Origin: Thalassovita autumnalis
GTDB lineage: Bacteria; Pseudomonadota; Alphaproteobacteria; Rhodobacterales; Rhodobacteraceae
Assembly: GCF_001458255.1 (NCBI RefSeq)
Contig: NZ_CYSB01000010.1
Location: forward strand, 1 to 64,000
DNA: 64,000 nt
Reading direction: 5' to 3'
Shown here: positions 487 to 11,721 of the stretch, piece after piece
Numbering within the stretch: position 1 is the first letter of the stretch
Layout of the letters: each line of letters starts with the position of its first letter
Notes under the pieces: model-generated
What the model was told of the DNA's origin: nothing
Databases searched by the model: none
The model's input: only the letters and a program-made list of their open reading frames with translations
Translations under genes and position numbers: made by a program

Positions 487-3400
487 GTGAGAGCGTGGAG
501 TGATAAACGGGCAAATATGAAGACTTTGGGTAAGGCCCTGCGCAAGCTCTGCGCAGGTGGGGCTGATCTGCGGATCGGTGCGATTGTTATGGTATTGGGG
601 GTTGGCTTTGGGGCTTTGGTTCCCAATCAAGCGAAGGCACAAGACGTCGACTGGGTTTTGAACCTGGAAGACACGGGCTATGACCCGACGCCGGCAGGTG
701 GTCTGATTTCCTACAGCTTGTCGATCTCCAACAGCGGTCTGGATTCCATAACAGCGACCTCAGTGGATCTGACAATCCCTGCCAACAGCCAGTTTGCCGG
801 GATGACCGGCGATATGGGGCCCTGTCTGCCAGCGACAGCGACGGGCCCAGCCGTGGTGCGCTGCGATGTGCCGGCATTGGCCGGAGAGGGCAGCGTGGCA
901 GCGCAGGTTAACATCCTGTCTGAGGTGATGGGCAACCTGTCCCTGTCCGCTGCAATCACAGATTCCACCGACGCACCGCAGACCGGCAACAACCAGGATA
1001 CAGAAACAACCACGGTCAGCGCAGGTTCGGATCTGGGTGTCACACTCAGCGGCCCAACAACCGCGGCTTCTGGCAGCGTGGTGACTTACAGTTTTGTGGT
1101 CACAAACAATGGCCCCAATACGCTTAGCACAGCGGCGTTGCAGTTCCCGACCACCAGCGGCTTGGTGGATGTGACCCCGCCGGCAGGCTGTTCTGCCGGG
1201 GCGGGTGGCTTTGACTGTACAATTACGGGGCCTCTGTCCCTTGGCGCGAGCCGCAGTTTTGACTTTACCGGCCAGATTTCAGCCGCCTCAGGCTCGACGA
1301 TTTCACCGCTTGGCAGTGTCCATACTGCGGATCCGCTGGATCCGATTGATGGCAATGATACTGATACGATCGACACCTCCGTGACCTCTGGAAGCGACAT
1401 CCGGATCAGCAAGTCCCGTTCGCCAAATGGCAACCTGCTGGTTGGGGACACGGTCAGTTTTACCCTGTCTTCCAGCTACACAGGTGACAGCCCGACGGGA
1501 TTGCAGATCCTCGACACATTGCCGGTGAACTACCAAATTGACAGCGTTGTGCCTGATGGGGGCAGCGACTGGGTTTGCGGTTTTATGGGCCAAGTTGTGA
1601 CCTGTGACATGACTGATGGAACGGTCGCTGGGTCAAATGTGGACCTTGGTGATGTGACGGTGAATGTGACCGTTGTGTCCGAAGGCACTGCGCAGAACAC
1701 CGCAAGGATTTCATCTGCCTCCCCCCTGGATCCGGACCTGAGCAACAACAGCGACAGTGACAGCGAAGCGACGATTGTTGAGCCGTTCATCGATCTGGAT
1801 GCCAATAAAACGGGTCCGTTCCCGGCCCTTGGTGTTGTTGGCAACACCTATGAGTTTACGCTGAACGCGCGCAACCGGGGCAACACTGATTTCTGGGGCA
1901 CCGTGATTTTAACAGACAGTCTGCCGGCTGGGCTGCGCTACTCTGGCTATCGCGGTAACGGTTGGTCCTGTAGCCCTGCAGCGCCTGTGGACGGTCCCAA
2001 CGATGTGACCTGTAGCCGAACCTACACCGAGGCGAGCCCGCTGCCTGAAAACAGCACGACGCCCGATCTGATCCTGGAAACCGAAACACTGGCGGAAGGC
2101 GATGCCACCAACGTGGTTACTGTCTCTTCACCCGACGCCAACCTTGTCGATCAGATTGCCAGCAACGATACCGCGTCGGTCACGCTAAGCGTCTATCAGA
2201 CAGCAGTTTCGGCGGATATTACTGTGCAGAAGTCGGCTACTTTGGCATCCCTGCAAGCTGGCGAGGTGCAGACCTTCACTATCGAAGTGATCAACCCAGA
2301 TGCCTTTACCGCGACGGATGTTGAGGTCACGGATGACCTGACCGGCCTAATCAACAATGCGGTTGGTGCCACCGGCGCGGGAGTTGTGGGCTTCAGCATC
2401 ACAGCCAACGCAGCCTCTGGCGTGACCTGTGACACGGATACAGTTTTGGGCGGAACTTCGCGCCAGCTCTCCTGTGACATCGTCAGCTTGCCCCAATGTA
2501 CGCCCGGCGCAGGCGGGGATTGTCCGATCATCGAGGTGCAGGTGCGCCCGGGCGGCAATGGCGGCAGCCGGACCAATACGGTTGACGTGATTTCGATGGG
2601 TGTGGCGGACGGTGACCTGACCAACAACACGGACAGCGCCAGCTTTACCCTGACACCGCGCGCGGATGTCACCGTCAGCAAAGTTGGCTCGCCCGGATCA
2701 GTGCCGGCAGGTCAGAACCTGACTTATGTGATTTCCGCGATCGTGACCGATGACGGGTTGAGCGCCGCAGATGATGTGACGATCACCGATACGTTGCCGC
2801 ATGGGGTGACCTTTGTTTCAGCTTCGCCCTCGGCGGGCAGCTGTACCACGGTGCCAACCGCGGGCGATGCCATCACCGCGCTGAACGATCAGTTGGTCTG
2901 TGATCTGGGTCGGATCAACAATGGGGCGCAGCACACGGTGACGGTTGTTGTGCGACCAAACCACAGCGCGGGCGCATATCCCCGTACCATCACCAATGCG
3001 GTGTCGGTGGCCACCAGCACGGTGCAGACCGATACCAGCAATGACAGCACCACCGAAACAACCACGGTGACGATCCCGGCGATGGATCTGATCGTGAACA
3101 AGACCGAGGATATTGATCCGGTCGCAGTCGGTCAGGAAACGACCTACACCATCACCGTTGAAAACGGCGGCCCCAGCCATGCCGAAGATGTGGTTGTGAC
3201 TGATACAATGCCGGGGGCGGGCCTGAACTATCAGTCCTATACCGCACCCGGTGGCGTTTGTACGGCCCCGGCGGTGAATGCGGTTGGCGGCACGTTGACC
3301 TGTTCCTATGACCTGATCCCGGCTGGTGAAGTGCGCACCATCACCCTGACGGCGATGGGGGTGACCAAAGGGATCTACGACAACTCGGTCTCGGTCAGCT

Positions 3401-6400
3401 CTTTCGGGGCGGCGTCGCTTTATGACACCAACAGCACCAATGACAGCACCACCGAAGGCACCACCGTGCGCACCCGCGCCGATATGGAGGTGGTCAGCAA
3501 GACCCCCAGCGCGGCTTCGGTCAACCTGCGTGATGACTTCACCTTTGTGATCCGGGTCCGCAACAACGTCGGCCCTCACGTGCCCACCGGCGCCATTCTG
3601 GCTGAGGCGGATGAGGTTGAGGTGGCAGATACCCTGCCCAGCGGGATGGAACTGACTGGCACGCAAAGTGTTGCTGTGGTCAGCGGCTCCATCACGGCCA
3701 GCACCTGTACCGGTGCGGCTGGCGGGACCTCTTTCACCTGTGATCTGGGCACTGTCAGCTCTGGCGGTGAGGTGGACATCACCGTTCCGGTTCAGCTGGT
3801 TTCGGTCAGCAGCCTGCCGCATGTCTTCACCAATACCGCGACGGTCGACAGCTTCTCGCTGGATATGGAGCCGGGTAACAACAGCAATTCAGGCTCGGTC
3901 AGCGTAAACTCCTCGGTTTTGACCGGTCGTTTGTTCCGTGATTTCAATGACGATGGGGGGGTTGACGCGGGCGATACCGGCATCGCAGGCATCACCATGA
4001 CCCTCACCGGCACCTCGTTTGACGGCCAGTCGGTCACGAGGACGGTCACCACAGATGCCAACGGCGATTATCAATTCGACTACGTTCCGCAGGGCACCTA
4101 TCAGGTGAGCCGTGGCAGCGTTTCTGAGGCCTACCTCAACGACGGAACAGACACGCCCGGCACGCTGGGCGGCACCGCACAGAACACCACCGACATTGCA
4201 GCGATCAGCCTGCCTGCAAACACCAGCACCACCGGGTATCTGTTTGCCATGGTGCCACAGGCACGTATCGGCATCGCCAAAGAGGTCACCAATCAGGTGA
4301 TGCGCGCTGATGGGTCCTTTGATGTGACTTTTGGTCTGACGGTTGAGAACTTCAGCCTGGAAGATCTGGAAAACGTCACCGTGACCGACCCGCTGAGCGG
4401 CGCGGCGCCTAATTTTGGCTCCTTGGCGACCTTGGCGGATCCGGCAAACGATCCGATGATTCCGGGCACCTATGTGGTGACCACGGTGCCCAGCAGTGTT
4501 TGCGGTGGGGCACATCCCGGATTTAATGGCAGTGGGGACCCAATCGTCGCCACCGGTATCACCCTGTCTGCAGATACGCAGTGCGTTATAGATTTCACCA
4601 TCCGGGTGCAGCCAACCGTGCCGCTACCTGCGGCGCAGCCTGGTGGCCATCTTTTTGAAAATCAGGCCGAGGTTCAGGGCGATGGCGTTCTTTCGGGCCA
4701 GATCTTCCCGACAAACCCATTGCTGCGCGATCTGTCCGACAATGGCGGCAACCCCGACCGGAATAGCAACGGTCGCGGCAATGACGCGAATGAGGATGAT
4801 CCGACCCCGGTAACCCCGGGCGTGGCCCCAGCGATCGATCTGGTGAAAACCGTTTCGGGTATTCCAACCACACCCCAGGCGGGCGATACGCTGACCTACA
4901 GCTTTACCGTGACCAACACCGGCAACGTGGATCTGAGCGATGTTCAGGTTGTAGATCCGCTGCTGGGTGGCGCGCTTTTGTCGCCGACCATCTCCCTGGC
5001 GATGGGGGCTAATCACAGTTTCACTGAAACCTACGTGCTGACGCAGGTTGATATTGATGCGGGGCAGGTGGTCAACAACGCCGATACCTCAGGCCGTGAT
5101 CCCTATAACACATTGGTTGAGGATGATTCCGGCACCACCACCGGCACGGACGGTCCAACAACAGCGGTGCTGCCGCAGCGGCCCAGCATTGCCTTGGTGA
5201 AAACGGCAGATGTGTCGGGGGTGCAGACCCCGGCGGTCGTGGGCGATCCGATTGTCTATTCCTTCTCGGTTGAAAACACCGGCAACGTGACGCTGAGCGA
5301 TGTGCAGATCAATGACCCCATGTTGGGCGGTGATTTGCTGGTCACACCGCTGAGTCCGCTGACGCTGGCACCGGGGCAGACGGTCAGCACCGCAGTCAGT
5401 GTGACCTATACCCTGACGCAGGCGGATCTGGACGAAGGACAGGTGGTCAATCAGGCCCGTGTCACCGGGACACCGCCCAGCGGGCCGGATGTCTCGGATG
5501 ATTCCGGCACCGCAACCGGCACCGATGATCCAACCGCGTCGCCGGTGACGCAGAATGCTGCGATCACCCTTGAGAAAGAGGCGCAGGATGAAATCTACCG
5601 CACCACGCAGGCTGTCGCTGGTGATCCGCTGACCTATGAGTTCACGGTGACCAACACCGGCAACGTGACCCTGACCAATGTCACGGTCACCGATCCGATG
5701 CCGGGTCTGGTGATCACCAATCCGGTGATCCCGTCGCTGGCACCGGGGGCTGCCAATGCGGTGGTTCTGACAGGCAGCTACCCGTTGCTGCAGGCCGACA
5801 TCGATGCAGGTGAAGTGCCAAACACTGCAACCGTGACCGGTGACTATCTTGATGTCACCGACACGCCGCAGCAGGTCAGCGACACCGACTCGGACCTGGC
5901 GATTGTTGCCGCGATTGAGGCCCTGGCGGAGTTGTTCCCGGCCTTCAGCACAGACGGTGGCACAACCACCTCAATGCTGGCCTCGGACACGGTGCTGGGG
6001 GATCCGGCCACGCTGGCAACTGTGACGATTTCCGTGCTTTCCGAAGATCCGGGCGTGACGCTGGATCCGGCAACTGGGTTGATCACCCTGGCCCCGGGCC
6101 AACCGGCAGGCGCCTATGAGGTGCATTATGAAATCTGCAGCGTCGCCTATCCGGCGATCTGTGACGATGCGGTCGAAACCGTGGTGCAGAACCCGATTGA
6201 ATCGATTGAAGCGGTGAAATCGCAGCTGCTGGTTGACAATGGCGATGTTGTGGATGGCGTTGGGGATCGGGTGGATTACACGATCACCTTGACCAACACC
6301 GGCAACGTGCCACTGACCTCTGTCTCGCTGGTGGACACGCTGACCAGCCGCACCGGAACGCCCCTGTCACTGGATGCCTTGCCAGTTTTTGTCTCTGCCG

Positions 6401-7644
6401 ACCTCGGCTCTGCCGAAGGGCGTTTGGAAATTGGCGAAACGGCCACGTATACCGCCAGCTACACCCTGACGATTCAGTCGGTCACCGAAGGTGGGCTGAT
6501 GAACTCGGTCACCGGGCGCGGCACCTCGGAGTATCCGCCGATGTTCACATCCGCACCACGGGTGGTGACCGATGTCTCAGACGATGACATCGATACCGAC
6601 GGCAACATGGTCGATGACCCGACTGAGCTGATCCTGTCAGCCGTCATTACGGATCAGGGCATGACGATCACCAAAACTACGCCGCGTGGTGTGGTAGAGC
6701 GCGGATCGGTGGTGCCCTACACGATCACCGTTGAGAATGAGAACGTCTTTGTCTCAGGCACGGTCGATATTGTGGATGTGCTGCCGGATGGGCTGTTCTA
6801 CGTCGAAGGCTCCGCCACGCTTGAAGGCGCACCGCATCCTGTTGTCGTGGCCGGTCGGGTGATCACCTGGGATGATGTGCCCCTGCCACCGCTCACCACC
6901 TACACGCTGACCTTGTCAGCGCGGGTCAGCAGCGGTGCAGATGTCGGCGATCACATCAACCGGGCAACGGTCCGCCATCCGGATAACGGTACGCTTCTGG
7001 CCGAAGAAGCCACCGCAACGGTGCGGATCCTGCCCGAACCGGTGTTTGATTGCGGCGACGTGATCGGCAAGGTGTTTGAGGATGAAAACCGGGATGGCTA
7101 CCAGAACGAAGGGGAGACTGGCCTGCCAGCGGCCCGTGTGGTGGGCGTTGACGGCACCATCATCACCACGGATGAGCACGGTCGCTTCCATGTGCCCTGC
7201 GCCATGCTGCCGGCGGATCGTGGATCAAACTTCATCCTGAAACTCGATACCCGGTCCCTGCCTGCGGGCTACCGCGTGACCACGGAGAACCCGCGCGTCA
7301 TTCGCCTGACCCCCGGCAAGATGAGTGAGCTGAACTTTGGCGCTGCGATCACCCGTGTGGTGCGGGTGGACCTGAGCGATGTGGCCTTTGTGAGCGACGC
7401 TGAGGGGCGCAAACGCCTGAGCGAGCCACTGGTCTCTGGGTTGGCGCAGCTGTTGCCACAGATCAAGGCAGAGGCGGTGCATCTGCGGCTGGCTTATCAT
7501 CTGGGGGACACACCAAGCGGTGCCGACAAACGGCGCGCCCGGCAACACATGCAACTGGTGGCACGCCATCTCAGACGGGAATGGCCCAAGATCAGTCAGG
7601 TCAAACTGACGATCGAGCGGACCTTCGTTGAGACCCGGAAATAA
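487..7644 (+). CDS. Giant exported DUF11-repeat surface protein with SdrD-B-like domains
   Basis: About 2385 aa. It begins with a long signal peptide (basic N-region, hydrophobic VMVLGVGFGAL, cleavage after NQAKA). Then come about 14 DUF11/conserved-repeat Ig-like modules of 110-150 aa, each starting with a strand such as DLGVTLSG, ADITVQKS or AIDLVKT, followed by YxFxVTNxG and later a TDTLP/VTDP segment. Two SdrD-B-like modules carry Asp-rich EF-hand-like loops (DFNDDGGVDAGDTG near residue 1150, DENRDGYQNEGETG near 2200). A cadherin-like stretch lies near 1820-1900. The last ~90 residues form a charged OmpA-like remnant. Family knowledge: such proteins are surface stalks or adhesins. Start candidates are TTG 472, GTG 487 and ATG 517; GTG 487 has the best-spaced purine stretch (GGGGAC). 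The next gene follows at once, suggesting an operon. Function is inferred. Confidence 0.85.
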   Translation: MRAWSDKRANMKTLGKALRKLCAGGADLRIGAIVMVLGVGFGALVPNQAKAQDVDWVLNLEDTGYDPTPAGGLISYSLSISNSGLDSITATSVDLTIPANSQFAGMTGDMGPCLPATATGPAVVRCDVPALAGEGSVAAQVNILSEVMGNLSLSAAITDSTDAPQTGNNQDTETTTVSAGSDLGVTLSGPTTAASGSVVTYSFVVTNNGPNTLSTAALQFPTTSGLVDVTPPAGCSAGAGGFDCTITGPLSLGASRSFDFTGQISAASGSTISPLGSVHTADPLDPIDGNDTDTIDTSVTSGSDIRISKSRSPNGNLLVGDTVSFTLSSSYTGDSPTGLQILDTLPVNYQIDSVVPDGGSDWVCGFMGQVVTCDMTDGTVAGSNVDLGDVTVNVTVVSEGTAQNTARISSASPLDPDLSNNSDSDSEATIVEPFIDLDANKTGPFPALGVVGNTYEFTLNARNRGNTDFWGTVILTDSLPAGLRYSGYRGNGWSCSPAAPVDGPNDVTCSRTYTEASPLPENSTTPDLILETETLAEGDATNVVTVSSPDANLVDQIASNDTASVTLSVYQTAVSADITVQKSATLASLQAGEVQTFTIEVINPDAFTATDVEVTDDLTGLINNAVGATGAGVVGFSITANAASGVTCDTDTVLGGTSRQLSCDIVSLPQCTPGAGGDCPIIEVQVRPGGNGGSRTNTVDVISMGVADGDLTNNTDSASFTLTPRADVTVSKVGSPGSVPAGQNLTYVISAIVTDDGLSAADDVTITDTLPHGVTFVSASPSAGSCTTVPTAGDAITALNDQLVCDLGRINNGAQHTVTVVVRPNHSAGAYPRTITNAVSVATSTVQTDTSNDSTTETTTVTIPAMDLIVNKTEDIDPVAVGQETTYTITVENGGPSHAEDVVVTDTMPGAGLNYQSYTAPGGVCTAPAVNAVGGTLTCSYDLIPAGEVRTITLTAMGVTKGIYDNSVSVSSFGAASLYDTNSTNDSTTEGTTVRTRADMEVVSKTPSAASVNLRDDFTFVIRVRNNVGPHVPTGAILAEADEVEVADTLPSGMELTGTQSVAVVSGSITASTCTGAAGGTSFTCDLGTVSSGGEVDITVPVQLVSVSSLPHVFTNTATVDSFSLDMEPGNNSNSGSVSVNSSVLTGRLFRDFNDDGGVDAGDTGIAGITMTLTGTSFDGQSVTRTVTTDANGDYQFDYVPQGTYQVSRGSVSEAYLNDGTDTPGTLGGTAQNTTDIAAISLPANTSTTGYLFAMVPQARIGIAKEVTNQVMRADGSFDVTFGLTVENFSLEDLENVTVTDPLSGAAPNFGSLATLADPANDPMIPGTYVVTTVPSSVCGGAHPGFNGSGDPIVATGITLSADTQCVIDFTIRVQPTVPLPAAQPGGHLFENQAEVQGDGVLSGQIFPTNPLLRDLSDNGGNPDRNSNGRGNDANEDDPTPVTPGVAPAIDLVKTVSGIPTTPQAGDTLTYSFTVTNTGNVDLSDVQVVDPLLGGALLSPTISLAMGANHSFTETYVLTQVDIDAGQVVNNADTSGRDPYNTLVEDDSGTTTGTDGPTTAVLPQRPSIALVKTADVSGVQTPAVVGDPIVYSFSVENTGNVTLSDVQINDPMLGGDLLVTPLSPLTLAPGQTVSTAVSVTYTLTQADLDEGQVVNQARVTGTPPSGPDVSDDSGTATGTDDPTASPVTQNAAITLEKEAQDEIYRTTQAVAGDPLTYEFTVTNTGNVTLTNVTVTDPMPGLVITNPVIPSLAPGAANAVVLTGSYPLLQADIDAGEVPNTATVTGDYLDVTDTPQQVSDTDSDLAIVAAIEALAELFPAFSTDGGTTTSMLASDTVLGDPATLATVTISVLSEDPGVTLDPATGLITLAPGQPAGAYEVHYEICSVAYPAICDDAVETVVQNPIESIEAVKSQLLVDNGDVVDGVGDRVDYTITLTNTGNVPLTSVSLVDTLTSRTGTPLSLDALPVFVSADLGSAEGRLEIGETATYTASYTLTIQSVTEGGLMNSVTGRGTSEYPPMFTSAPRVVTDVSDDDIDTDGNMVDDPTELILSAVITDQGMTITKTTPRGVVERGSVVPYTITVENENVFVSGTVDIVDVLPDGLFYVEGSATLEGAPHPVVVAGRVITWDDVPLPPLTTYTLTLSARVSSGADVGDHINRATVRHPDNGTLLAEEATATVRILPEPVFDCGDVIGKVFEDENRDGYQNEGETGLPAARVVGVDGTIITTDEHGRFHVPCAMLPADRGSNFILKLDTRSLPAGYRVTTENPRVIRLTPGKMSELNFGAAITRVVRVDLSDVAFVSDAEGRKRLSEPLVSGLAQLLPQIKAEAVHLRLAYHLGDTPSGADKRRARQHMQLVARHLRREWPKISQVKLTIERTFVETRK

Positions 7645-7663
7645 GGACAGACTGACGCCTATT

Positions 7664-10600
7664 ATGACTGTTGCCCGTCCGGGCCGCACAACCGCTTTGC
7701 GTTCTTCACTGATGATCGGCACCGCTTTGGTCAGCCTCTGGGGCGCGCCTGTTTGGGCTGAGGACCGTTGTGATGAGGCCTTGGTACCCCAGCCCGAAGG
7801 CTGCGCACGGTCCAACGCCGACATCGTGGTGGATATGCCCGTTGGGGAAAACGCTGAGTTGATCACTACTCGTCCTGAAGGCCGGTTCGAAGAGGTGGGT
7901 TTCTCGATCTCAATCGATGACACCCATGTGGCCGGCAGCGCGCCGCCGCGTGATCCCCGCCGTCCTAACGATATGGTGGCCGAGAAAGCATCGGTTGATA
8001 TCCGGTTTGACGGACTTAATCCGGTGGCGCGCTTGAATGTGTCAACTGCGGATTTGCGCGCGGGCTACCGCGCTGGTGAGGTGGTGACCTTCCGCAGCAG
8101 CGCGAACTACGCCTATTTCATCGACCGGGCTGAGGTGCGCATTCTGGACCGCGCCAACCGGCGTAAGCCTGTGGCGGTGCTGCCGATTTCTTCAAACGGT
8201 CAGGCGGGCTGGTCCATGCCTGAAGGGGGATCGGGCGATTATGCCTATGTGCTGCGGGTCTATGATGCGGCGGGGCGGTTTGATGAAACCCAACCTTTGC
8301 GGCTGACCCGGCTTTCTGGTGATCACGACAGACATGACACCACCGGGCCGGAGCTGGTCGCGGCAGGGGAGGGCGAAGATCGCACCGCCATCCGCAACAT
8401 TCGCATTTCAGGCGGCGAAGTGACAGCACATGGCACATCCCTGCCAGCTGGCGCAGTGGTGGAGGTCATGGGCGCGCAGGTGCCGGTGGATGCCACTGGC
8501 CGGTTTGTCACCAGTCAGATCCTGCCAGAGGGCGAACATCGCATTGATGTGCGCCTAGTGACCGATGGACAGGCTGAGGCCATTCGCCGTGACATTCGGA
8601 TCCCTAAATCAGAACAGTTCTATGTGGTGCTGGCTGACCTGACCATCGGGCGGCGGTTGCGCGATGATCTGGGCGAAGCGGACCCGGATTTCGAACGTAA
8701 CTATGCTGAAGGTCGGCTGGCCTACTACGTCAGTGCCAAACTGGCCTCGGGTTATAAGATCACCTCCTCTGCCGACACGGGCGAAGGGGATTTGGACGGC
8801 ATCTTCCAGCGGTTGAACGAAAAGGATCCGCGCAACGTGCTGCTGCGCCTGGATCCGGAGGATATGTATCCCAGCTATGGCGATGATAGCAGCGCCTATG
8901 ACGATACGCCGTCGCAGGGCCGTGTGTATGTCCGGGTGGAAAAGGGCGGCAGTCGCTTCACCTGGGGTGATTTCGACGCTGAACTGACCGGCAGCCATTT
9001 CCTCAATCAATCCCGCGCTCTCTATGGGGCTGAGGTGCGTTATGCCTCTCCTTTGGTGAACAGCGAAGGGGCACCGAAACTGGCAGCCACCCTTTTTGCC
9101 GCCCAGCCTGATAGCCTGCCACAGCGCGACATCCTGCGTGGCACTGGCGGGTCGGTCTATTTCCTGACCCGTCAGGATATCCTTGGTGGTTCACTGCGGC
9201 TGAGCGTTGAGACGGTTGATCCAGACACCGGCCGGGTGGTGCGCAGCGCCCCCATGCAGGAAGGGCAGGACTACGAAGTGGATCACATGCAGGGTGTCTT
9301 GATCCTGACCGATCCGCTGCCCAGCTCCACAACGGATGGCGGCCTGATCGGTGGCAGCAATGAGTATGACGTCAATCTTGTGGCCCAGTATGAGTACACC
9401 CCGCTGGCGGGTGATCTTGATGGGGCGTCGATTGGTGCACGTGTTGAGGCGCAGCTGACAGACCGCTTGCGCTTGGGCCTGTCGGGCATGTCCGAACAGA
9501 CCGGAGATGCGGATCAACAGGCCGCCGGGGTAGATCTGACCTATCGACTGGGTGAGAACAGCCAGATCCGTGCCGAAGTGGTGGAAAGCCGCGGCGCGGG
9601 CTTTGGCCGGTCGACCTCAGCCACCGGCGGGCTGAGCATCGATACCAGCGGTACACCAAGCAGCGTGAAGGCCCGTGCCTATCGCTTTGAGGCGGACCTG
9701 GATCTGACCGATCTGGGGGCCAAGCGGGAAGGTCAGCTTTACCTATATGCCGAGGGCAAGGAAGCCGGGTTCGCCACCCTCAGCGAAGAGGTGAGTGAGG
9801 ATCAGCAGGTCATCGGCCTGCAGCTTTCGACTGAGCTGAGTGATCGGTTGAGCTTTGGTCTGGATCTGGAGCGGTTTGAGAAAGAAGGCGGCGACGGCCA
9901 CCGTGAAGGGGAGCTGCGCCTGTCCTATCAGCTGAGCGATACCCTGGCGCTGGATCTGGCGCTGGGCCATGAGGATCGCACCGTTGCAGCGGATGCCAGC
10001 AAAACCGGTACTCGCACGGCAGCTGCGGTTAAACTGACGTTCCAGCCTGAGGAGGATCACAGCCTCTATGTCTTCGCTCAGGGCGACCTGGAACGCTCCG
10101 GCGGTCTGGCGCCGGACAATCGCGCCGGCATCGGGTTTTCCAGCCAGCTGACCGAATATCTCAACGCGGATGGCGAAATCTCGGATGGGGACAAGGGCCG
10201 GGGCGCCAAGCTGAACCTGCGCTACGCCGCGACGGCAGATAACGAGGTTTACCTTGGCTACACCTTGGATCCCACGCGGTCCGGCCCCGGCAGCAGCCTG
10301 AGCGGGCGGGACGGCGGCACCTTTACGCTGGGCGGCAGCCACAAAAAGACAGACACGCTGACGGTGACAGCTGAAAACAGTTGGGATCTGTTTGGTGATC
10401 GCCGATCACTGACCCGTGGCTATGGCGTCACTTATACGCCAAATGCCAAATGGACCTTCTCCGGCGCAGTGGAGAGCGGTGAGGTACGGGATGCGGTGAA
10501 CGGCGATTTCAATCGGGATGCCTATTCGCTGGGCCTCGCCTATCAGGATGGCGAAGACCAAAGCGCCCGACTGCGATTGGAGCACCGCGTGGAAGATGGC

Positions 10601-11254
10601 GACGACGCAACGCAGGATGCAGAGACCTGGGCGCTGAGCGGCGGCTATGAGTATAAGGTCAATGATGACTGGCGTTTCCTGGCCAATCTGGATGCCCTTG
10701 TGTCCCGCAATGAAGGCGATAATTTCCGTGACGGCGAATATTTTGAGGCCGCTTTGGGCTATGCCTATCGTCCAGTTATGCATCAGCGGCTGAACATGTT
10801 GCTGCGCTACAGCTACCTGCATGACCTGCCCGGTGTTGATCAGGTCACCGTCACAGGCGACACCGAAGGGCCGCAACAGAAAAGCCATATCTTCTCGGTT
10901 GATGTGGATTACGACCTCAGCCCGAAACTGACGCTTGGGGCCAAATATGGCTATCGTAAGTCGCAACTGCGCGATCGCACCAGCGGGGATGAGAGCACCA
11001 GCACAGCGAATTTGGGCATCCTGCGCCTGGACTGGCATGTGGTGCACAAATGGGATGCGCTGCTGGAGGGCAGGGTGATGCACACCGAGGAAAGCGACCT
11101 GACCGAAACCGGTGCGGTGGCGGGCCTCTACCGTCATCTTGGCAATAATGCGAAGCTGGGTTTTGGCTATGAATGGGGTGAGGTTTCGGATGATATGGCC
11201 GATATCACCTATGAAGGTCGCGGGGCTTTCGTGAACCTGATTGCCAAGTTCTAA
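7664..11254 (+). CDS. Predicted outer-membrane beta-barrel partner of the DUF11 protein
   Basis: About 1196 aa with a signal peptide (LMIGTALVSLWGAPVWA then EDR). Residues ~90-320 read as two Ig-like/Big domains. From ~330 comes a block with LADLTIGRRL, NVLLRLDPEDMYPSYGDDSS and RVYVRVEKGGSRFTWGDF, which I recall as conserved in large DUF11-associated proteins of other proteobacteria. Residues ~560-1196 alternate amphipathic strands (LRLGLSGMSE, QIRAEVVESRG, LSFGLDLERFE, TLGAKYGYRK) and end in an aromatic strand, GAFVNLIAKF, typical of an outer-membrane barrel C-terminus. An in-frame TTG at 7628 would overlap the upstream gene, but ATG 7664 gives a normal signal peptide and a 19-base gap. Co-transcription with the giant protein suggests that it anchors or exports it (inference). 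Confidence 0.78.
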   Translation: MTVARPGRTTALRSSLMIGTALVSLWGAPVWAEDRCDEALVPQPEGCARSNADIVVDMPVGENAELITTRPEGRFEEVGFSISIDDTHVAGSAPPRDPRRPNDMVAEKASVDIRFDGLNPVARLNVSTADLRAGYRAGEVVTFRSSANYAYFIDRAEVRILDRANRRKPVAVLPISSNGQAGWSMPEGGSGDYAYVLRVYDAAGRFDETQPLRLTRLSGDHDRHDTTGPELVAAGEGEDRTAIRNIRISGGEVTAHGTSLPAGAVVEVMGAQVPVDATGRFVTSQILPEGEHRIDVRLVTDGQAEAIRRDIRIPKSEQFYVVLADLTIGRRLRDDLGEADPDFERNYAEGRLAYYVSAKLASGYKITSSADTGEGDLDGIFQRLNEKDPRNVLLRLDPEDMYPSYGDDSSAYDDTPSQGRVYVRVEKGGSRFTWGDFDAELTGSHFLNQSRALYGAEVRYASPLVNSEGAPKLAATLFAAQPDSLPQRDILRGTGGSVYFLTRQDILGGSLRLSVETVDPDTGRVVRSAPMQEGQDYEVDHMQGVLILTDPLPSSTTDGGLIGGSNEYDVNLVAQYEYTPLAGDLDGASIGARVEAQLTDRLRLGLSGMSEQTGDADQQAAGVDLTYRLGENSQIRAEVVESRGAGFGRSTSATGGLSIDTSGTPSSVKARAYRFEADLDLTDLGAKREGQLYLYAEGKEAGFATLSEEVSEDQQVIGLQLSTELSDRLSFGLDLERFEKEGGDGHREGELRLSYQLSDTLALDLALGHEDRTVAADASKTGTRTAAAVKLTFQPEEDHSLYVFAQGDLERSGGLAPDNRAGIGFSSQLTEYLNADGEISDGDKGRGAKLNLRYAATADNEVYLGYTLDPTRSGPGSSLSGRDGGTFTLGGSHKKTDTLTVTAENSWDLFGDRRSLTRGYGVTYTPNAKWTFSGAVESGEVRDAVNGDFNRDAYSLGLAYQDGEDQSARLRLEHRVEDGDDATQDAETWALSGGYEYKVNDDWRFLANLDALVSRNEGDNFRDGEYFEAALGYAYRPVMHQRLNMLLRYSYLHDLPGVDQVTVTGDTEGPQQKSHIFSVDVDYDLSPKLTLGAKYGYRKSQLRDRTSGDESTSTANLGILRLDWHVVHKWDALLEGRVMHTEESDLTETGAVAGLYRHLGNNAKLGFGYEWGEVSDDMADITYEGRGAFVNLIAKF

Positions 11255-11721
11255 GGCGTCTCCGGGCTGGCGAGCGGTATCGTCAGCCCGGATTTCACCC
11301 GCTTCATCACCACATTGGTGCGGAATTTGGCGATATTGGCTTCGTCAAAGAAATGCCGCCGGGTGAACCCCTCATAATCCGCCATGTCCTTGGCTGTCAG
11401 GGTCAGAACAAAGTCTGCCTCCCCGGTGACATAGAAACATTGCATGACCTCAGGCGCCTGCAGCATCCGGGTTTGAAACGCGTCAATCTCACTAGGGCTT
11501 TCTGAACGCAGCGTGACCTCCACCACCAGGGTCAGGCCGCGGCCCAGCTTTTCGGGGTTCAGCACGGCCACCTCAGCCTCAATCACCCCGGACTGACGCA
11601 GCTTGGACAGCCGTTTGCGACAGGCATCCGGTGACAGGCCAACCTGCGCCGACAGCTGTTCTGCGGTTTGGCGGTTGTTTGTTTGCAGGGCGTCCAGCAA
11701 AGCGCGGTCAAACGGGTCCAT
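11251..11721 (-). CDS. Lrp/AsnC family transcriptional regulator
   Basis: 156 aa, normal family length. Residues 1-55 form the AsnC-type HTH (LDALQTNNRQTAEQLSAQVG, SPDACRKRLSKL). Residues 65-150 form the RAM ligand-binding domain, with GEADFVLTLTAKDMADYEGF as its central part. It is transcribed away from the lyase/M24/racemase operon and shares a 165-base control region with it, so it most likely senses an amino acid or related compound and controls that operon and itself (inference). Its 3' end overlaps the barrel gene's stop by 4 bases in convergent orientation. Confidence 0.9.
   Translation of the reverse strand: MDPFDRALLDALQTNNRQTAEQLSAQVGLSPDACRKRLSKLRQSGVIEAEVAVLNPEKLGRGLTLVVEVTLRSESPSEIDAFQTRMLQAPEVMQCFYVTGEADFVLTLTAKDMADYEGFTRRHFFDEANIAKFRTNVVMKRVKSGLTIPLASPETP

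Follow-up and report, generated by a model that had tools for sequence, protein, structure and literature searches.

To our knowledge, it is not settled how Gram-negative bacteria export and hold the very long adhesins that are built from DUF11 (CLIPPER) domains. In two-partner secretion (type Vb), adjacent genes encode a large exported protein and its barrel, and type Ve proteins combine immunoglobulin (Ig) domains, a barrel, and a peptidoglycan-binding domain. As far as the accessible parts of the papers go, DUF11 has been named CLIPPER and one such domain, taken from an adhesin of Acinetobacter that bears an OmpA-like anchor, has been solved (PMC12617251), fibrillar adhesins have been treated in general (PMC9210967, PMC8286594), and the nearest mechanism is that of SprB, which is bound to SprF (PMC9143113). 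Here, we describe two adjacent genes in Thalassovita autumnalis, one for a long DUF11 stalk and one for a candidate outer-membrane barrel. They lie in the first 64 kb (hereafter, the window) of contig C10 (NZ_CYSB01000010.1) of a 4.36-Mb genome. A role of this pair in display is well supported by the genomics, and we think it probable that the two proteins form an outer-membrane display unit in which the stalk stands outside the cell with its C-terminus docked at the barrel, while the barrel serves as the anchor and likely as the gate.

An earlier note on this stretch had proposed a two-component surface display system, an interpretation that, as a whole, is partly supported. The exported protein of about 2385 amino acids (aa) that it described lies where it was placed: the open reading frame (ORF) is open from 472, and a GTG at 487 does give 2385 aa, but the likely start is the ATG at 517, which gives 2375 aa. 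The count of about 14 DUF11 modules and two SdrD-B-like modules agrees with Pfam, which finds DUF11 in 14 stretches (E 3e-110), DUF7507 (E 7.5e-106), and SdrD_B in 2 stretches; NCBIfam reports DUF11-type repeats (E 1.8e-77) and isopeptide-forming fimbrial domains (E 2.8e-24). The stalk also has the Sec signal that was claimed (by eye) and, at E <= 1, the threshold for the family absences given below where no other is named, no RTX or translocator family in Pfam. The OmpA-like tail is probably a divergent OmpA-type domain, from which the usual peptidoglycan loop is absent. Finally, the 1196-aa ORF does follow the stalk directly, and it contains the PSYGDDSS / YVRVEKGGSRFTWGDF block. The parts of the two genes are the following.

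517 to 7644, forward strand: stalk gene, encoding a 2375-aa exported DUF11/CLIPPER repeat protein (Pfam, NCBIfam, and ORF reading; intact in a close relative).
517 to 639, forward strand: predicted Sec signal peptide of the stalk, residues 1-41, with cleavage between AKA and QD (by eye).
682 to 6999, forward strand: DUF11/DUF7507 repeat region, with 14 DUF11 stretches by Pfam and 14 by our own hidden Markov model (HMM).
3928 to 4119, forward strand: first SdrD_B-like module, residues 1138-1201 (Pfam).
7033 to 7350, forward strand: C-terminal SdrD_B-like domain (SB), residues about 2173-2278, better conserved in relatives than the repeats and found beside the barrel or fused with it.
7351 to 7635, forward strand: OT tail, a putative divergent OmpA-type domain without the usual peptidoglycan-binding loop (profile comparison and single-sequence model).
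7645 to 7663, forward strand: intergenic gap of 19 nt, with a Shine-Dalgarno-like AAGGA (by eye) spanning the stalk stop codon.
7664 to 11254, forward strand: barrel gene, encoding a 1196-aa exported protein from the ATG at 7664 (ORF reading, Pfam, and alignment).
7664 to 7759, forward strand: predicted signal peptide of the barrel protein, residues 1-32 (by eye).
7892 to 8653, forward strand: BN, a beta-rich N-terminal region, residues about 77-330, into which the stalk tail continues without a break in a natural fusion (L098).
8681 to 9433, forward strand: PSYGDDSS...WGDF...RGTGGSVYFL block, residues about 340-590, the most constrained part of the barrel gene (alignment).
9434 to 11251, forward strand: candidate outer-membrane beta-barrel, residues about 590-1196, with a C-terminal Phe (weak Pfam matches, alternation, and alignment).

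The stalk-barrel pair is a real, conserved, and widely spread unit, and the dedicated pairing that the earlier note had suspected is strongly supported. In a search of 150 genomes of the same family, the window's own included, the barrel was matched in 21 genomes, with 19 long matches in 17 of them. Eighteen of these long loci have a readable neighbourhood (that of G139 ends at a contig edge), and in all 18, including the window, the stalk lies directly upstream of the barrel on the same strand. An alignment of the stalk tail matched 25 of the 150 genomes, and the barrel is present in all 17 genomes with strong matches (E < 1e-50), although in G109 it is a piece at a contig end. Among 348 Pseudomonadota genomes, 46 were matched by a barrel profile, and every one of the 22 further long loci has a partner: 20 upstream, one in reversed order (G309; L121 3-14180, with the barrel first and a 3505-aa stalk second), and one fused (G346). 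These counts of neighbourhoods exclude 14 weak or distant matches among the 46 genomes as well as the G109 piece, and the loci are not all independent because some genomes are near relatives (for instance, G476 and G478). In a plasmid collection, the barrel occurs in 23 records from proteobacteria and cyanobacteria, all with an adjacent or fused partner. In 22 of them, the tail lies beside the barrel or in the same ORF, as judged from coordinates within about 1.2 kb, and in the 23rd, from a cyanobacterium, an ORF with repeat and SdrD_B overlaps the barrel ORF. Named carriers include Sinorhizobium, Phyllobacterium, Sulfitobacter, Roseivivax, Eleftheria, Vibrio campbellii, Acinetobacter haemolyticus, and Synechococcus. 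A phage collection gave no match, and a scan of genome contigs gave one relative because it required exact short motifs. The plasmid records H1-H22 annotate the barrel relatives variously as TonB-dependent receptor, OmpA family protein, DUF11 protein, or hypothetical protein.

Barrels without a DUF11 neighbour, which the earlier note had named as evidence against its proposal, are not common among the loci read, where the exceptions to the pairing are a truncated barrel (L002) and two small remnants, namely a 70-aa barrel C-terminus (L145 7884-8096) and a 245-aa stalk tail (L144 6983-7720). The remnants suggest that the unit decays in some genomes. It is also patchy, since only one of the eight same-genus relatives searched has the barrel. 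In this relative, the same locus shows 91.7% DNA identity over 17.2 kb, with both ORFs intact and zero indels across 3571 codons, and both genes are under purifying selection (dN/dS of 0.096 for the stalk and 0.079 for the barrel). Within the pair, dN/dS is lowest in barrel residues 330-590, the PSYGDDSS block (0.017), and highest in OT (0.228). As for the stalk itself, all 12 of the genome-wide DUF11 matches fall within it, and in 13 aligned repeats of the window, the columns for the candidate intramolecular isopeptide bonds (Lys-Asp-Asn) hold the consensus Lys in 7 and the Asp in 11.

Natural fusions of the two proteins, for which the earlier note had asked for a count, do exist. In L098, which lies at a contig start and has its N-terminus cut, four repeats, an SdrD_B domain, an OT-like stretch (by eye), BN, and the barrel are found in one chain, and the OT-like stretch runs directly into the start of BN without a signal peptide at the junction. 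Furthermore, 19 distant loci were read, one of them from the tail search: 16 are fusions in which a single ORF holds both a DUF11 repeat and the barrel, 2 have two genes, and 1 is cut by the contig. A tree built from 66 barrel blocks requires 3 changes between the fused and the split state, and 3 are forced by well-supported branches; these may be one gain and two losses. The contig-cut row L046 was left out of this tree, and a 67-row tree that includes it gives 4 changes. Such fusions, and adjacency in all intact loci that could be read, are difficult to account for unless the two proteins touch, which they would not do if the barrel were a pore for another cargo (for instance, a polysaccharide or a nutrient) and the stalk a co-regulated surface protein. 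The label of TonB-dependent receptor that several barrel relatives bear in database records favours such a pore, but no TonB-receptor or plug family was found in the window's barrel, for which we rejected that label, and we regard a pore of this kind as improbable.

In distant relatives, several short proteins have also been found upstream of a fused DUF11-barrel protein, most of them with a signal peptide by eye and one DUF11 near the C-terminus. The loci with these proteins are the following.

L119, 4624-12396
L108, 3316-11207
L120, 2567-10247
L116, 3676-12584
L126, 4951-14415

Possibly, these short proteins are the subunits of a fibre. The same barrel may, in these distant loci, assemble a fibre from secreted subunits in a manner that would resemble a pilus usher, with unrelated parts.

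A third part of the unit, which was unexpected and is new here, is a true OmpA domain (PF00691). It accompanies the unit in 22 loci, in each of them over the Pfam cut-off, and takes four arrangements: at the C-terminus of the stalk, in the position of the window's OT (L099-L102, L107); on an extension at the N-terminus of the barrel protein (L092, L093, L095, L097, L123); encoded by the gene that comes next (L104-L106, L111, L112, L124, L126); or inside a fusion, between a repeat and the barrel (L109, L110, L116, L146, L147). These loci are a minority of those read; the 3 with names are from beta- or gammaproteobacteria, and the others are outside the window's class. The domains were first found with a profile of nine domains from the window's own genome, and 20 of the 22 were then re-tested with Pfam and passed, while L093 and L123 had passed Pfam earlier. 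The domain of L092 is unlisted in a scan of the whole protein and passes as an N-terminal piece only (35.7 bits, cut-off 27.2). The unit goes beyond what the earlier note had described, as it extends to beta- and gammaproteobacteria and to cyanobacteria and, in many relatives, includes a true OmpA domain. In the record of an alphaproteobacterial Croceibacterium plasmid, the gene with the tail is labelled OmpA family protein.

The tail of the window's own stalk looks like a divergent and degenerate relative of this domain. When a profile of OT from 33 sequences was compared with four sets of OmpA domains, the probability was 23-67%, and for the three sets that were controlled, the score exceeded that of every one of 30 column-shuffles per set, while an SdrD_B control stayed under 1%; with 16 sequences only, OT reached 11.6%. 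A single-sequence model of OT gives a beta-alpha-beta-alpha-beta order (pLDDT about 56-79). When the stalk tail was modelled by itself with AlphaFold2, a pLDDT mostly above 50 was confined to roughly the last 80 residues, and a fold search of the Protein Data Bank (PDB) with the tail model returned nothing at E <= 0.001.

Apparently complete two-gene stalks carry from 7 to 31 repeats by HMM count (36 in L127, whose start is cut), and the SdrD_B tail is found in every one of them. In a mirror-tree comparison over 43 loci (42 for the repeats), distances between barrels correlate with those of the SdrD_B tail at r 0.80, of the last DUF11 at 0.82, and of the first DUF11 at 0.48. Mean identity in the same-family subset of 24 loci is 63% for SdrD_B, 37% for the last DUF11, and 27% for the first. 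The mirror-tree and the repeat counts would fit a C-terminal base and a fast-changing outer end, and shared descent alone could be the source of much of the mirror-tree signal.

Taken together, these data lead us to propose that both proteins would reach the periplasm through Sec and that the 1196-aa protein would then form a large barrel in the outer membrane, its BN part lying in the periplasm. The DUF11 chain would lie outside the cell with its N-terminus distal, presumably as an adhesin, while the SdrD-B/OmpA-type tail would remain at the base, docked on the periplasmic side of the barrel. The N-terminal side of an outer-membrane barrel is normally periplasmic, and we place the tail on the same side as the N-terminus of the barrel because the fusions and the OmpA domains put it there. 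The base would be tied to the peptidoglycan in many relatives by a true OmpA domain that sits at the junction or next to it. The barrel would anchor the stalk and most likely also act as the gate for its passage. No other exporter signature was found on the stalk and no ShlB match in the genome; therefore, the barrel is favoured as gate and anchor, although the chances that it does export the stalk seem to us about evenly balanced.

It may also be that the barrel is the anchor only, and that the stalk crosses the outer membrane through a different exporter before it binds the barrel, in the manner of SprB and SprF. We think this possible but rather unlikely. There is a described analogue, in which PorP-like barrels are the binding partners of type B CTD proteins and SprB has been found bound to SprF, according to the accessible part of one paper (PMC9143113), and a constant C-terminal domain with a dedicated barrel fits such an arrangement. 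The stalk, however, has no type IX CTD family, the genome has no ShlB-type exporter in a search whose controls scored only below the cut-off, and the fusions put stalk and barrel in one chain. A search of the genome for SprA_N gave no match, and its control matched nowhere either, so no conclusion can be drawn from it.

Several observations weigh against the proposed display unit. The barrel fold itself is predicted from sequence features, and the Pfam matches to barrel families are weak. The one family over its cut-off on the protein is DUF7840, and barely (27.1 bits, cut-off 27), and the candidate region has weak matches to BBP2, OMP_b-brl, and Autotransporter (PF03797, 19.4 bits, cut-off 26). 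The C-terminal Phe speaks for a barrel in that it is invariant in 17 aligned close relatives, but it is absent from distant fused relatives. Also in favour, residues 580-1196 contain 36 segments of alternating hydrophobicity against a mean of 19.6 in 200 shuffles (sd 3.1, max 29), but BN, which is presumably soluble, alternates as well (12 segments against 7.3 in shuffles, max 12), while residues 330-580 are within the shuffle range (10 segments against 7.9, max 12); alternation is thus not specific to the candidate barrel. An AlphaFold2 model of the barrel from a 2-row alignment (window and L002) was uninformative (pLDDT 28.7), and sequence searches of the PDB gave chance-like matches only (best E 0.65), with no solved relative. 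The absence of a confident barrel family, the uninformative model, and the alternation of BN would also suit a secreted or periplasmic beta-rich scaffold that is not a membrane barrel at all. We find this highly improbable in view of the invariant Phe in close relatives, the strong alternation in residues 580-1196, and the weak barrel-family matches in that same region. The number of strands, by eye, might be roughly 26-34, which is a very rough guess. A likeness of the PSYGDDSS block to motifs of SprA was considered, but it is unsupported by any search. Beyond the barrel gene, a 156-aa ORF on the minus strand (11251-11721), named an Lrp/AsnC-like regulator by eye, is convergent with it and overlaps its end by 4 nt.

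Other contrary observations concern the stalk and the distribution of the pair. No distal adhesive Pfam family over the cut-off was found on the stalk, whose repeats begin at about residue 56. With the nine-domain profile, no true OmpA domain was found in the window's locus or in its family, and an alignment to true OmpA domains shows that the loop of OT is shortened and lacks the peptidoglycan-binding pattern, which we take to be G-H-T-D ... N-x-x-L-x-x-x-R, as is visible in the aligned true domains. Between close relatives, the tail is not specially constrained, as the dN/dS of SdrD_B (0.119) and that of OT exceed that of the whole stalk. In the same-family subset, the mirror-tree r is 0.58 for SdrD_B, 0.81 for the last DUF11, and 0.57 for the first; therefore, the conserved SdrD_B does not stand out there, while the last repeat does. 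In Paracoccus solventivorans (L002 10001-12652), an 883-aa barrel without the first ~320 residues has no stalk in its 10-kb flanks, and it is apparently a decayed copy. Furthermore, both cyanobacterial loci have a short upstream partner of 541-542 aa, in which a single repeat is recognised and which would fit within the periplasm. This agrees with the idea that the stalk stays there as a spacer or tether between the barrel and the peptidoglycan, as does the fact that the OmpA domains adjoining the tail are periplasmic by known function. Nevertheless, with the 14 repeats of the window and up to 31 in complete relatives, the chain would be longer than the periplasm is wide, and the accessible part of one report treats DUF11 as a stalk domain of the cell surface (PMC12617251); we consider a periplasmic stalk very unlikely.

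Given these results, the display unit that we favour can be compared with the known systems. In the accessible open-access literature, with most subscription papers and bioRxiv preprints outside its scope, no description of the stalk-barrel pairing was found, and the available portions of papers on the type XI secretion system (T11SS), DUF3233, Brucella antigens, and Vibrio describe no such pair (PMC12282271, PMC3206015, PMC6304850, PMC8877628, PMC10868097). Two-partner secretion is similar in that stalk and barrel genes are likewise adjacent, but we rejected it, given that the stalk has no TPS domain, the barrel has neither ShlB nor POTRA, and the genome has no ShlB match in the search with below-cut-off controls mentioned above. 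The type Va autotransporters recall the fused relatives (L098 and the distant loci), which hold repeats and barrel in one chain, but with this barrel. They were rejected for the window, where there are two chains and PF03797 remains below its cut-off; unlike in autotransporters, the candidate barrel would also be much longer than a 12-strand barrel needs. Type Ve was rejected because the repeats precede the barrel in the fusions, the reverse of the Ve order. T11SS (Slam/DUF560) was rejected as DUF560 is unlisted for the barrel, and RTX membership as the stalk has no RTX family. Type IX was also rejected, with no CTD family on the stalk and no PorP/SprF family on the barrel, although its type-B CTD adhesins with PorP/SprF barrels are similar in that a surface adhesin is held by a dedicated barrel (PMC9143113, as far as its accessible part goes).

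It is possible, if doubtful, that the unit represents a new display pathway of alpha-, beta-, and gammaproteobacteria and cyanobacteria, in which three exchangeable modules, namely a CLIPPER stalk, a large barrel without kinship to known exporters, and an OmpA anchor for peptidoglycan, are variously fused or split and the barrel exports the stalk. The recognition of the unit would correct the annotation of barrel relatives that databases now list under TonB-dependent receptor, OmpA family protein, or hypothetical protein. Furthermore, the question of how such stalks are exported and held can be put to the test with two or three genes, given a barrel that accompanies them in two phyla or more, forms natural fusions with them, and often comes with a peptidoglycan anchor. 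The window's stalk does belong with the CLIPPER/DUF11 proteins, as its signal peptide (by eye) is followed by DUF11/DUF7507 repeats in tandem. The adhesin B9T28_05395 of Acinetobacter silvestris likewise has a tandem DUF11/DUF7507 stalk and ends in an "OmpA-like anchoring domain", and the accessible part of the report mentions no partner barrel for it (PMC12617251), whereas in the window, the OmpA-type domain is degenerate and a distal adhesive domain was not found. A pair that has been kept together across distant bacteria points to a little-studied way to hold long adhesive fibres at the cell surface.

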